Assembly: GCA_947625815.1 (NCBI GenBank)
Contig: CANQPU010000015.1
Coordinates: 1 to 51,750, forward strand
From: an uncultured Oscillospiraceae bacterium
GTDB lineage: Bacteria; Bacillota; Clostridia; Oscillospirales; Oscillospiraceae
DNA length: 51,750 bases
Reading direction: 5' to 3'
The position numbers and the translations under genes are program-made. The notes below the pieces were generated by a model. It saw only the letters and a list, made by a program, of their open reading frames with translations, was not told where the DNA came from and did not search any database. Below are positions 19,167-31,741 of the stretch, in pieces (the first letter of the stretch is position 1; each line of letters opens with the position of its first letter).

Positions 19167-19242
19167 GCTGCTATAGCTCAGTAGGTAGAGCGCATCCTTG
19201 GTAAGGATGAGGTCCCCAGTTCGAATCTGGGTAGCAGCTCCA
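19167..19242 (+). tRNA. tRNA-Thr (anticodon GGT), integration site
   Basis: 76 nt with encoded CCA. Acceptor GCTGCTA/TAGCAGC; anticodon loop TTGGTAA between CATCC and GGATG. Only 3 bp separate it from tRNA-Asp. Its 3' half, from the anticodon loop to CCA (19197-19242), is repeated exactly at 31742-31787. It is therefore the attachment site of the neighbouring element, whose end restores the tRNA. Confidence 0.98.
19197..19242 (+). repeat. attL core (46-bp direct repeat)
   Basis: Identical to 31742-31787. It runs from the anticodon loop of tRNA-Thr to CCA. The similarity continues beyond CCA into the terminator and the integrase 3' region, because a second related element lies behind the right copy. 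Confidence 0.92.
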
Positions 19243-19278
19243 AAAAATCCCCGAAATCGTAAGATTTCGGGGATTTTT
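19243..19278 (+). terminator. tRNA operon terminator supplied by the element
   Basis: A 16-bp perfect stem (19243-19258 with 19263-19278), GTAA loop, ending in T5. It begins at the base after tRNA CCA. A copy with a GCAA loop occurs at 31788-31823. Confidence 0.92.
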
Positions 19279-19300
19279 GTTATGATTTTGCGTGAAAAGA

Positions 19301-19348
19301 TGTGGGTCAAAGTGTGGGTCAACCGTCCGACCCACACACTGACCCACT
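19301..19348. promoter_or_regulatory. Candidate integrase arm-type sites, left end
   Basis: Direct repeats TGTGGGTCAA at 19301-19310 and 19313-19322 (12-bp period), then inverted copies GACCCACA (19329-19336) and TGACCCACT (19340-19348). The same motif recurs near the right end at 31608-31629. Confidence 0.6.
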
Positions 19349-19362
19349 ACGGGACAGGACGC

Positions 19363-19395
19363 AAAAGCACCGGGCAGGACGTGCCCGGTGCTTTT
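19363..19395 (-). terminator. Bidirectional terminator after integrase
   Basis: A 13-bp perfect stem (19363-19375 with 19383-19395), with A4/T4 at the two ends. It lies 15 bp past the integrase stop. A copy is at 31908-31940 beside the integrase pseudogene. Confidence 0.85.
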
Positions 19396-19409
19396 GGCGT
19401 GTATTCTCA

Positions 19410-20561
19410 TCACATTATCTGCTCCATAAAGTTCCCCATCGTCTCCGCAGCCTTGTCCTGCATTTGGCGGGTAGCGTGGGTGTAAGTGCGGAGGGTGAAC
19501 CCGGCATCGTAGTGGCCGAGCATGGTGGAGACAGTTTTCACGTCCACTCCGTTTTGCAGGGCTGTCGTCGCGAACGTGTGGCGGAGATCATGGAAACGGA
19601 TGTGTTCAAGTCCGGCGGCTTTGAGGAGCTTTTTGTGGATATTCACCACCGAGTCCGGGTGATACATCTCCCCGGTCAGGGGTGAGGGGAACATATATTT
19701 GTTGTCGGGGTGCTTGGCGTGCTCCTCTTTGAGAAGGTCCACAGCGGTTTGGGGGATGGATACCTGGCGGATGGAGGTCTCGGTTTTGGGTTCAGTGAGG
19801 ACACGTGTGCCGTCGGGATTGCGGATATACTGTTTGGTTACGGAGATGGTTCTATTCTCTTCGTCGAGGTCGGACCAAAGCAGGGCTACAATCTCGCCTT
19901 TGCGGAGGCCGGTGGTAAGCTCCAGGTAGAACATCGGGAGAACATCACGGTCACGGGCTGCGTCTAAGTAGGCTTTCATCTTCTCCGGCGGGAGTATCTT
20001 CATCTCGATTTTTCTCGCTTTCGGCGCGATACAGTCCTCTGTGGGATTCCGTACAATGAGCCGCTCCTTGACTGCTCTCTGAAAGGCATTGTGTAACATC
20101 AGGTGGAGACTCCGAACGGTGGTGCTGCTGAGTCCGGGTGTTCCCTTTTTCCCACGATGGACACGTCCGTTTTCCTGGAGGTCCTTGTAGAGCTTCTGCA
20201 AATCGCGGCCTGTGAGCTTGCTCAATTTGATGTTCCCGATGCGGGGAATCGTGTAGACGTTGATCATCAGTTCATAGCGGTTCGCCGTCGCCGCGCGGAC
20301 GTTTGGTTTGGCATAGAGGTCATACCATGTTTTCAGCCACGTCGCCACCGTGTACTCGTCGGATTTCCCAACGTCCACCTCCTGGCTCTCCGCGATGGCA
20401 AGCCGCAGTTTCTGTTTTACCTCGGCTTGCGTCTTGCCGAGGACGTTTTTCACGATCCGCTTGCCGGTGGTCGGGTCATGTCCCGCCGTGTATCTGCCTT
20501 CCCAGCGTCCGTCGGCTCTTTTCCGTATATTCCCCTCGCCCTGCGCCCGTCTCTTTGCCAT
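19410..20561 (-). CDS. int: Site-specific tyrosine recombinase (integrase)
   Basis: 383 residues. An N-terminal AP2-like arm-binding domain (GEGNIRKRADGRWEGRYTAG), a SAM-like core-binding domain (about 68-175) and the catalytic domain. Catalytic residues: Arg220 (TTGLRKGE), His324/Arg327 (HDLRHTFAT), His350 (LGHYD) and Tyr360 (TYTHAT). This is the Tn916/phage-type integrase family. It sits next to the tRNA attachment site and points toward it, as is usual. The ribosome binding site GGAGG precedes the ATG at 20561. It should catalyse insertion at, and excision from, the 46-bp core. Confidence 0.96.
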   Translation of the reverse strand: MAKRRAQGEGNIRKRADGRWEGRYTAGHDPTTGKRIVKNVLGKTQAEVKQKLRLAIAESQEVDVGKSDEYTVATWLKTWYDLYAKPNVRAATANRYELMINVYTIPRIGNIKLSKLTGRDLQKLYKDLQENGRVHRGKKGTPGLSSTTVRSLHLMLHNAFQRAVKERLIVRNPTEDCIAPKARKIEMKILPPEKMKAYLDAARDRDVLPMFYLELTTGLRKGEIVALLWSDLDEENRTISVTKQYIRNPDGTRVLTEPKTETSIRQVSIPQTAVDLLKEEHAKHPDNKYMFPSPLTGEMYHPDSVVNIHKKLLKAAGLEHIRFHDLRHTFATTALQNGVDVKTVSTMLGHYDAGFTLRTYTHATRQMQDKAAETMGNFMEQIM

Positions 20562-20624
20562 CTACGGCACCTCCTTCGCTTTTTGGTAACCACAACACAT
20601 ACCACACTTTCCGGGAAAAAGCTA

Positions 20625-31086: not shown

Positions 31087-31144
31087 ACGGCGAAGGGGCT
31101 TTATATTTGTTGCTCTACGTCTTGTTAATACTATTCCCCTCCCC

Positions 31145-31170
31145 AAAATTGCAGGGGGTCCCCCGCAATT
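31145..31170 (-). terminator. Terminator between phoR and DUF6809 gene
   Basis: AATTGC-A-GGGG (31147-31157) pairs with CCCC-GCAATT (31161-31170). On the minus strand it is followed by TTTT. The stop codon of the minus-strand gene falls inside the stem. It may also stop phoR transcripts. Confidence 0.65.
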
Positions 31171-31444
31171 ATTGAGGGCCTCCTGTGAGGATTTCGGCCA
31201 TCAATTTCGCCCCAAGCGTAAAGGCTTCGCGGAAGCGTTTTTCCTCGATGAGGCAAGTGACCTCGAGACGGTCATTCTGGATGGCTTGAAGCAATTCCTT
31301 CTCCTGCTCGTCGAGGCTCGCTTCAAGCTTGTCCTCGTTCTCATGTACCCGTTTCATAATAACCGCCGCTTCCGCCGTGAGCCCGCCCATTTGCTCGACC
31401 GGACGGATATTGCCATAATAAAGTTCATTGATGATGCTGACCAT
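31169..31444 (-). CDS. DUF6809-like small protein
   Basis: 91 residues. It starts IINELYYGNIRPVEQMGGLT and ends FREAFTLGAKLMAEILTG; this LYYG...P...GxxLGA pattern is that of the DUF6809 proteins, frequent in clostridial mobile elements and of unknown function. A central acidic helix (ENEDKLEASLDEQEKELLQA) is likely. The ATG at 31444 has GGGGG 8 bp upstream; the ATG at 31450 is too close to that site. It is the last gene before the right arm sites and attR. Confidence 0.75.
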   Translation of the reverse strand: MVSIINELYYGNIRPVEQMGGLTAEAAVIMKRVHENEDKLEASLDEQEKELLQAIQNDRLEVTCLIEEKRFREAFTLGAKLMAEILTGGPQ

Positions 31445-31545
31445 TGTCATTTCCCCCTTTGGCAACACACAATACCGCAGAGAGAATGGAAAGTCGAGAA
31501 GAAGTTGTTCGGCAGAAGGGAGAAAAGCACTTGTGCGAGCACTAT

Positions 31546-31576
31546 GAATTTGTGTCACCAGTGGTGACACAAATTC
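31546..31576. promoter_or_regulatory. Perfect 31-bp inverted repeat
   Basis: 14-bp arms (31546-31559 with 31563-31576) around AGT, about 100 bp upstream of the DUF6809 start and 32 bp from the right arm-type sites. It could be an operator, an accessory site for excision, or part of an oriT. No T-run. Confidence 0.55.
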
Positions 31577-31607
31577 GGATTCTGAATAGCTGCCAACGGC
31601 GATGGCC

Positions 31608-31629
31608 TGACCCACACTTTGACCCACAC
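31608..31629. promoter_or_regulatory. Candidate integrase arm-type sites, right end
   Basis: TGACCCACAC at 31608-31617 and 31620-31629 (12-bp period), inverted relative to the first pair at the left end. They lie about 115-135 bp inside attR. Confidence 0.6.
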
Positions 31630-31741
31630 GGGAAAATCACCGGGTGGAAACAGTGAACTTAACAGCACTCTTGCTCCCGTATTTTTGGACCGGAAAGGGC
31701 CAAAAATCGTTGCGGCGCAAGGGATTTAAGGCTCCGAACCA

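Follow-up and report, generated by a model that had tools for sequence, protein, structure and literature searches.

The 51,750-nt stretch of DNA analysed here (the window) is contig 15 of the genome of an uncultured Oscillospiraceae bacterium (genome G000; 1.9 Mb, 35 contigs, 95.9% complete). The question that it raises is whether a complete phosphate uptake and control module, pstSCAB-phoU-phoB-phoR, situated between two copies of the 3' part of a tRNA-Thr gene, belongs to the chromosome or is the cargo of a mobile element. The Pst-Pho system is generally regarded as a stress response that belongs to the core genome and is wired into the chromosome. In this case, the module appears to be carried by a putative integrative and mobilizable element (IME), most likely mobilizable, as a phosphate cassette that regulates itself and occupies an exchangeable slot, a reading to which we assign a probability of roughly 0.85. 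The comparison covered 34 genomes of the genus (G000 and 33 congeners; completeness 72-100%, so that some absences may be gaps), and the tRNA-Thr region was read in 18 of these (G000 and 17 of the 33 congeners), with some stretches ending within a few kb; G codes denote genomes and L codes denote DNA loci. Protein families were called using Pfam and NCBIfam profile searches, with the NCBIfam cut-offs, and tRNAs were identified using ARAGORN.

The element that the initial annotation had proposed on the basis of 46-bp tRNA-Thr ends, arm repeats, an integrase and a relaxase was confirmed (Table 1). The genes for tRNA-Asp and tRNA-Thr(GGT) together span positions 19087-19242, and the 46-nt 3' part of the latter recurs exactly at 31742, such that one copy restores the target gene, as expected of an IME. 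The exact run shared by the two attachment (att) sites is longer than first described, namely, 63 nt, and is contained in a 213-nt repeat at 94% identity that is followed by integrase 3' parts at 81-85%; the repeat is so long because the right copy also forms the start of a second, related element. The arm-type repeats include a 21-nt perfect inverted pair (19301-19321 and 31608-31628), and the right arm is kept in four of the five aligned congener stretches (G005, G010, G020 and G022), the fifth, G015, being unrelated upstream of att. Adjoining attL, at one end of the element, is its own full-length site-specific integrase (PF00589), in which LRKGE (residue 219), HDLRH (324) and TYTH (359), presumably the catalytic motifs, were found. 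All frames of the mobility and pst-pho genes are open.

The relaxase scores 186.7 bits against 28.5 for PF18555 (Pfam) and 362.5 against 150 for NF041499 (MobP3, NCBIfam), and contains the 3H (HUH) motif FHNEGNHPHVHMMAW at residue 187 as well as N-terminal tyrosines at residues 10, 19 and 22. The element thus encodes a relaxase of its own, with the profile match, the 3H motif and the N-terminal tyrosine expected of MOBL/MobP3 proteins. To our knowledge, C-terminal Sel1 repeats are an unusual addition to a mobilization protein. One distant relaxase (37%) was detected in viral contigs, and one full-length match (36%) among the 154 plasmid records with some match. Our guess is that the MobC-like protein probably adopts a ribbon-helix-helix fold. 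Between its gene and the HTH_36 gene, two blocks, one of 23 nt that includes a palindrome and one of 15 nt, are invariant in nine of nine aligned elements, and the rest of this region is variable; by position and conservation, these blocks are a candidate origin of transfer (oriT). No conjugation pore genes were recognised among the scanned proteins of the element (Pfam, NCBIfam), as is typical of an IME.

Relatives of the element occupy the same site in other genomes of the genus. A full-length integrase 95-97% identical to that of the window was found in the tRNA-Thr array of six of the 17 congeners (G002, G005, G006, G013, G020 and G022), in every case accompanied by HTH_36 and by a complete or partial MobC-like gene; relaxase sequence (78-87%) is present in all six but G006, being fragmented in G002, in G005 and in one of the two copies of G022. 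The xis-like protein is 88-94% identical in the congener elements where it was found, and the MobC-like protein is 84-96% identical (65% in one G022 copy). In G010, a pst module lies between two 46-nt att copies in the same tRNA-Thr array, beside an integrase remnant. The tRNA-Thr region of G026 has an integrase of 61% identity, those of G011, G015, G016 and G018 have integrases of 22-29%, and the stretches read in G007, G012, G021, G025 and G032 have none.

The slot between HTH_36 and DUF6809 holds different genes in different members of this family. In G020, it contains a sugar-type ABC transporter, DUF624, AraC regulators and an epimerase-like protein (Pfam), and the open reading frames (ORFs) in the G005 slot match the G020 cargo in length and start; judged by eye from the first residues, the cargo consists of sugar metabolism genes in G002 and of restriction-type genes in G006 and G022. 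The cargo junction is located at approximately 31086-31096, with the conserved right end beginning about 10 bp past the phoR stop codon, and this right end, common to G000, G005, G010, G020 and G022, adjoins different cargoes. In G022, which has no PstC over the cut-off, a frameshifted, broken phoR 3' tail abuts the right end at the same junction. The shared right end, the differing cargo and the G022 phoR tail indicate that the pst-pho module is slot cargo of an integrase/relaxase element and that at least one relative lost it. The notion of a mobilizable-type element with phosphate genes as cargo, already put forward in the initial annotation, is therefore upheld by the same backbone with other cargo in congeners and by pst modules between repeats elsewhere (see below). 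In the window, a 31-nt direct repeat (87%) is located just upstream of xis (20851-20881) and at the junction of cargo and right end (31096-31126); the pair encloses the relaxase, MobC, HTH_36 and cargo genes and might mark the point of cargo insertion.

The cargo is an intact module. PstS, PstC, PstA, PstB and PhoU all score over the NCBIfam cut-offs; the PhoB and PhoR equivalog cut-offs are not reached (230.7 vs. 296.2 for TIGR02154 and 306.7 vs. 400 for PnpS), and these are still the best models for the two proteins. No arsenic (aio/ars) genes were recognised among the genes of the element, in agreement with the initial annotation. The perfect sequence TTTACA-N5-TTTACA, which we take to be the PhoP/PhoB-type box of Gram-positive bacteria, occurs only twice in the 1.9-Mb genome. 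Both occurrences are in the element, before pstS and before phoB, and the phosphate circuit accordingly looks self-contained and self-regulated. There are 11 more boxes with one mismatch (3 for the reversed control pattern), of which four lie outside ORFs with an ORF start at most 350 bp downstream in the direction of the box (L227, L228, L229, L233); two others, L230 and L236, have such a downstream ORF but are themselves inside another ORF. By eye, with no family search made, none of these six downstream ORFs is a phosphate gene. A looser box pattern precedes the pstS match by no more than 220 bp in 35 of the 68 loci tested, and was not found in, among others, G002, G012 and G033.

Across the genus, PstC (TIGR02138) over the cut-off was detected in 14 of the 34 genomes, and the NptA family (Na/Pi cotransporter) in 30 of the 34. 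In G000, PstC was detected only in the element, and no other high-affinity phosphate (PstC) set was found in the genome, which is 96% complete. PhoU domains of G000 are confined to the element and a 591-aa frame on contig 18, the latter with an Na/Pi cotransporter domain (NptA-type). The initial annotation had proposed that the element gives its host a second, independent phosphate regulon, and had called for a search for a second, chromosomal pst operon. For this genome, the proposal is rejected: no second operon was found, the sole other PhoU is an NptA-type tail, and both perfect boxes are inside the element. Its premise that Pst-Pho genes are normally chromosomal core does not hold in this genus either, given the 14 of 34 count, several of the genomes being incomplete. 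A PstS-like match (28%; G000:C2:13705) covers 23% of a 634-aa protein and does not represent a pst operon; the gene for this protein is located at L222:761-2665 (G000 contig 2), and similar matches lie in frames of more than 600 aa in 15 congeners.

According to our own grouping of the 14 genomes with PstC, seven (G000, G001, G002, G010, G012, G032 and G033, the contig of the last ending after pstB) have a module of the window type, with PstS 88-97% identical in the other six; a second type is found in G006 (three pstS copies) and G004, and other types in G007, G014, G016, G024 and G025. The three pstS copies of G006 (L079, L080, L081) are 87-88% identical to that of the window and lie on three small contigs. 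In G001, pstS is split in two frames (L085:12351-13146), the window-type module being otherwise complete. G014, G016 and G024 have their own PstC and no NptA family member, at a completeness of only 72-81%.

Table 1. Coordinates in the window of the putative element, its cargo and the remnant to its right.
Feature	Position	Strand	Evidence or remark
Putative element	19197..31741	.	12.5 kb (12,545 bp) between att copies
tRNA-Thr(GGT), integration target	19167..19242	+	ARAGORN; 3' 46 nt (19197-19242) = attL
Arm-type repeats GTGGGTCA/TGACCCAC adjoining int	19301..19347	.	Repeat search
Tyrosine integrase (int), 383 aa, full length	19410..20561	-	PF00589 2e-27, PF14659 8e-11
xis-like excisionase, 68 aa	20625..20831	-	TIGR01764 3e-4, below cut-off
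MobL/MobP3 relaxase, C-terminal Sel1 repeats	20918..22810	-	PF18555 9e-55; Sel1 2e-13; NF041499 2e-108
MobC-like auxiliary protein	22798..23274	-	Similarity to congener elements
oriT candidate	23322..23465	.	CTGCCCGCACTGCGGGCAGATGT (23322-23344) and TTGTCTGACGTGTAA (23451-23465)
HTH_36 protein, left border of cargo slot	23548..23889	-	PF13730 4e-14
Pho-type box TTTACA-N5-TTTACA	24493..24509	+	73 bp before pstS start
pstS	24583..25392	+	TIGR02136 6e-64, over cut-off
pstC	25485..26423	+	TIGR02138 5e-81, over cut-off
pstA	26425..27264	+	TIGR00974 2e-74, over cut-off
pstB	27267..28025	+	TIGR00972 8e-126, over cut-off
phoU	28025..28669	+	TIGR02135 1e-60, over cut-off
Second Pho-type box	28676..28692	+	52 bp before phoB start
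phoB-like response regulator	28745..29428	+	TIGR02154 1e-68, best model, below cut-off
phoR/pnpS-like histidine kinase	29410..31086	+	NF046044 PnpS 2e-91, best model, below cut-off; HisKA, HATPase_c, PAS
Conserved right end of element family	31092..31741	.	Alignment of G000, G005, G010, G020, G022
DUF6809 protein	31169..31627	-	PF20648 5e-20
Right arm-type repeat	31608..31628	.	Perfect inverse of 19301-19321
attR core, copy of tRNA-Thr 3' part	31742..31787	+	Exact repeat
Integrase remnant of second, related element	31952..32371	-	70% to int residues 215-383
Remnant cargo: 612-aa protein without Pfam match and extracytoplasmic function (ECF) sigma factor	32451..34945	-	PF04542

The gene order of the remnant to the right of attR, integrase fragment, 612-aa protein and sigma factor, recurs inside the pst element of G010, where the 612-aa and ECF sigma genes occupy the place of xis and the relaxase (L073:11581-14039). 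At an identity of at least 90%, the 612-aa protein was found only in G000 and G010 among 36 genomes (weaker matches in two more), and the 612-aa and sigma genes common to these two genomes differ at only 11-13% of four-fold degenerate sites.

Beyond the genus, a PstS scan of genome contigs yielded 147 relatives, of which the best 80, in 79 loci, were analysed. In 47 of these 79 loci, PstS is at least 79% identical to that of the window. All 47 come from metagenome-assembled genomes named Lapin, which we take to denote rabbit samples (a raw count, not normalised by a core-protein scan of the same collection); the best non-Lapin match among these 80 is 77%. The 47 loci belong to 44 bins, 26 Oscillospiraceae, 16 Lachnospiraceae and 2 unplaced by title. 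As a yardstick, RNase Y of the genus is 62-70% identical to that of the 11 other families of the order in which long matches were obtained. Near full-length PstS matches in other genera are at 49-59%, i.e. 52% in G036 of the same family and 58%, 59% and 49% in G045, G049 and G058 of other families, compared to 83-89% between the window and the Lachnospiraceae bins, which points to transfer. Several pst modules at other sites also lie between repeats: direct repeats of 84 and 55 nt (85-93%) in G002, where no tRNA was found; a 187-nt repeat (88%) with, by eye, a tRNA-Met-like 3' end and a similar arm motif in L121; and a 218-nt repeat (92%) with, by eye, a tRNA-Thr(CGT)-like 3' end and a 58% integrase in L142. 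The 21-nt flanking repeat of L124 may be due to chance. Viral carriage was considered and rejected: 62 stretches of viral contigs fit the PstS pattern, and none encodes a relative.

When divergence from G000 was compared at four-fold sites, the pst-pho genes of the six other window-type hosts differ at 16-32% of the sites, compared to 33-38% for rny (four hosts), 30-41% for murF (three hosts) and 47-53% for rluD (three hosts). Given that the pst-pho genes are less diverged than the core genes, the spread of the cassette seems to postdate the separation of the species, and the cassette may pass from one element backbone to another. In the congeners with an IME at tRNA-Thr, the integrase and relaxase genes differ at 34-44% of the sites and rny at 29-43%. 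These values bear on another possible explanation, to which we give less than even odds, namely, that homologous recombination between islands is the main way in which the pst module moves, the IME being only one of its hosts. Overall, divergence is lower in the cassette than in the adjacent IME backbone genes (the mobC and hth36 values rest on 33-61 sites). Moreover, in quick trees of 37 loci, with several open forks, L084 (G025) is far off by PstSCAB and falls within the second type by PhoU-PhoB-PhoR, and L083 (G004) shows the opposite placement, so that the transporter and regulator halves were probably exchanged, clearly in L084 and likely in L083. Identity of the second type to the window is mostly 79-91% for PstSCAB and mostly 54-73% for PhoU, PhoB and PhoR; a recombination breakpoint between pstB and phoU in the window is unproven, PhoU-PhoB-PhoR being generally more diverged on the trees. 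Exchange by homologous recombination has also been proposed for the phosphate islands of HIMB59 (in the available text of PMC10734472). However, the modules are found inside repeat-flanked elements at several sites, and recombination and IME transfer are not mutually exclusive.

Several observations weigh against a mobilizable element with a phosphate cassette. Neither an excised circle nor transfer was observed, mobility being read from the genes; the chromosomal right flank (plsY onwards) is on other contigs in the relatives, and the exact empty site was not obtained. The initial annotation's xis-like and MobC-like genes are present with open frames, but the xis-like protein is a weak match (21.1 bits vs. 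the TIGR01764 cut-off of 28.8) and the MobC-like protein has no Pfam or NCBIfam match. The integrase and relaxase genes have diverged like core genes, such that recent transfer of the whole element between species is not supported, and at 16-32% the spread of the cassette is itself not very recent. The difference between cassette and core genes is narrow in some hosts (30% for phoU vs. 33% for rny in G010, 32% for pstB vs. 38% for rny in G001, and 27% for pstB vs. 30% for murF in G032), and G033 has no core gene for comparison. Exact flanking repeats of at least 18 nt were found in five of 69 distinct pst loci (those of G010 and G002, L121, L142 and L124) and a relative of the window integrase in seven of the 69, most having neither; many of these loci are cut by contig ends, and the integrase count covers this one family. 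The one-mismatch boxes leave some room for chromosomal targets. Finally, no type IV secretion system coupling protein (PF02534, the one pore family searched genome-wide) was found in G000, and the helper would thus come from elsewhere or from another element, or have a coupling protein of another family.

The lack of PF02534 is also compatible with a decayed, immobile island, formerly mobile and kept by selection for phosphate uptake. Decay is evident nearby and in relatives: only a remnant adjoins the element on its right in the window, G010 lacks a relaxase and retains just part of the integrase, the pst element of G002 has a broken integrase and relaxase, and pstS of G001 is split. Nevertheless, the integrase, relaxase and MobC-like genes, both arms, both att sites and the oriT candidate of the window are intact, and we consider an immobile island unlikely. 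The origin of all 47 closely related loci from Lapin bins could further suggest that binning errors or contamination between samples in a single metagenome project produced the pool of similar PstS seen across families, but the sequences differ among themselves, as indicated by branch lengths, GC content at third codon positions differs between loci, and ten of the 47 loci are on contigs longer than 100 kb, all of which make such an artefact very improbable. The least probable alternative, an ancestral chromosomal pst-pho operon beside tRNA-Thr, next to which integrase and mobilization genes landed by chance, accords with the murF-rluD-tRNA-Thr left neighbourhood, conserved in the genus where readable, and is largely refuted by the absence of pst-pho without integrase or att at this tRNA from the 18 genomes read (several stretches being short), where complete operons occur only in G000 and G010, both between att copies, by the unrelated cargo that the same right end adjoins elsewhere, and by the 20 of 34 genus members without PstC over the cut-off.

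Under the preferred reading of a mobilizable element with a phosphate cassette, the gene families suggest how excision, transfer and regulation would proceed. The tyrosine integrase would recombine the att sites at the 3' end of tRNA-Thr(GGT), aided by the arm sites and the xis-like factor; the MobL/MobP3 relaxase and its MobC-like partner would nick oriT, probably within the candidate region (23322-23465), and transfer would take place through a conjugation pore supplied by a helper element. When phosphate runs short, PhoB, activated by PhoR, would induce pstS-phoU and phoB-phoR via the Pho-type boxes. A recipient would gain high-affinity phosphate uptake with its own feedback in one step, a capacity that, by the PstC test, 20 of the 34 genus members are without.

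IMEs, MobL relaxases, phosphate islands and arsenic islands with pst genes are already known. According to the available text of PMC5704250, Firmicutes IMEs are mostly 5-15 kb long; the 12.5-kb element shares with them the single tyrosine integrase at one end, the tRNA 3'-end target, an own relaxase with an accessory protein, the lack of a transfer pore and cargo placed beside these modules. The cargo listed there comprises drug, arsenic and mercury resistance, toxin-antitoxin and restriction-modification systems, a protease and some ABC transporter parts, and the words phosphate and uptake are absent from this text; here, in contrast, the cargo is a complete transporter with its own two-component control. 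With the MOBL family of pLS20, as portrayed in the accessible part of PMC5313138, the element shares the MobL domain, the 3H motif, a Bacillota host, a repeat-bearing intergenic oriT (a candidate in our case) and an auxiliary gene between oriT and the relaxase gene, and it differs in the MobP3 assignment by NCBIfam, the C-terminal Sel1 repeats and its integrated state, pLS20 being a conjugative plasmid.

Among phosphate islands, those of marine HIMB59 (the available text of PMC10734472) likewise contain flexible pstSCAB-phoU with or without phoR-phoB and show evidence of horizontal spread; they are said to have no insertion sequence elements or tRNA at their borders, and all those found carry pst, whereas here an integrase, att sites, a relaxase and a tRNA are present and, judged by PstC, more than half of the genus is without pst. 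Arsenic islands with pst1/pho genes (PMC3834237, as far as its accessible text goes) resemble the element in that the pst operon is on a presumed horizontally acquired island, in some cases on plasmids, but nearly all of the strains concerned are said to have a further pst or phn operon elsewhere, in contrast to G000, where no second PstC was found, and no arsenic genes were recognised in the element. Tycheposons, compared by their description in the available text of PMC10872708, are similarly tRNA-bordered, with a tyrosine recombinase and nutrient cargo, and differ from the element in its relaxase-based mobilization module. In our searches of the open-licence literature, we found no description of a mobilizable element with pstSCAB-phoU-phoBR as the only such set of its host.

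In this genus, then, Pst-Pho is accessory and, in G000, the sole such set found in the host, with its own promoters and sensor, so that a recipient could acquire a working, self-limiting phosphate circuit in one step. The same backbone with a sugar-type transporter in a relative points to a plug-in slot for nutrient uptake. With about even confidence, we propose that in one habitat, apparently the rabbit hindgut, high-affinity phosphate uptake and the sensor that goes with it pass between Oscillospiraceae and Lachnospiraceae as a transferable trait. Integrase elements inserted at several tRNA genes and elsewhere would carry this trait, its transporter and sensor halves would sometimes be exchanged, and many host chromosomes would keep only a low-affinity NptA-type route. 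Phosphate acquisition as a traded trait among gut Clostridia thereby becomes directly testable, and a function usually regarded as a fixed part of the chromosome seems to be an optional one that these bacteria share.

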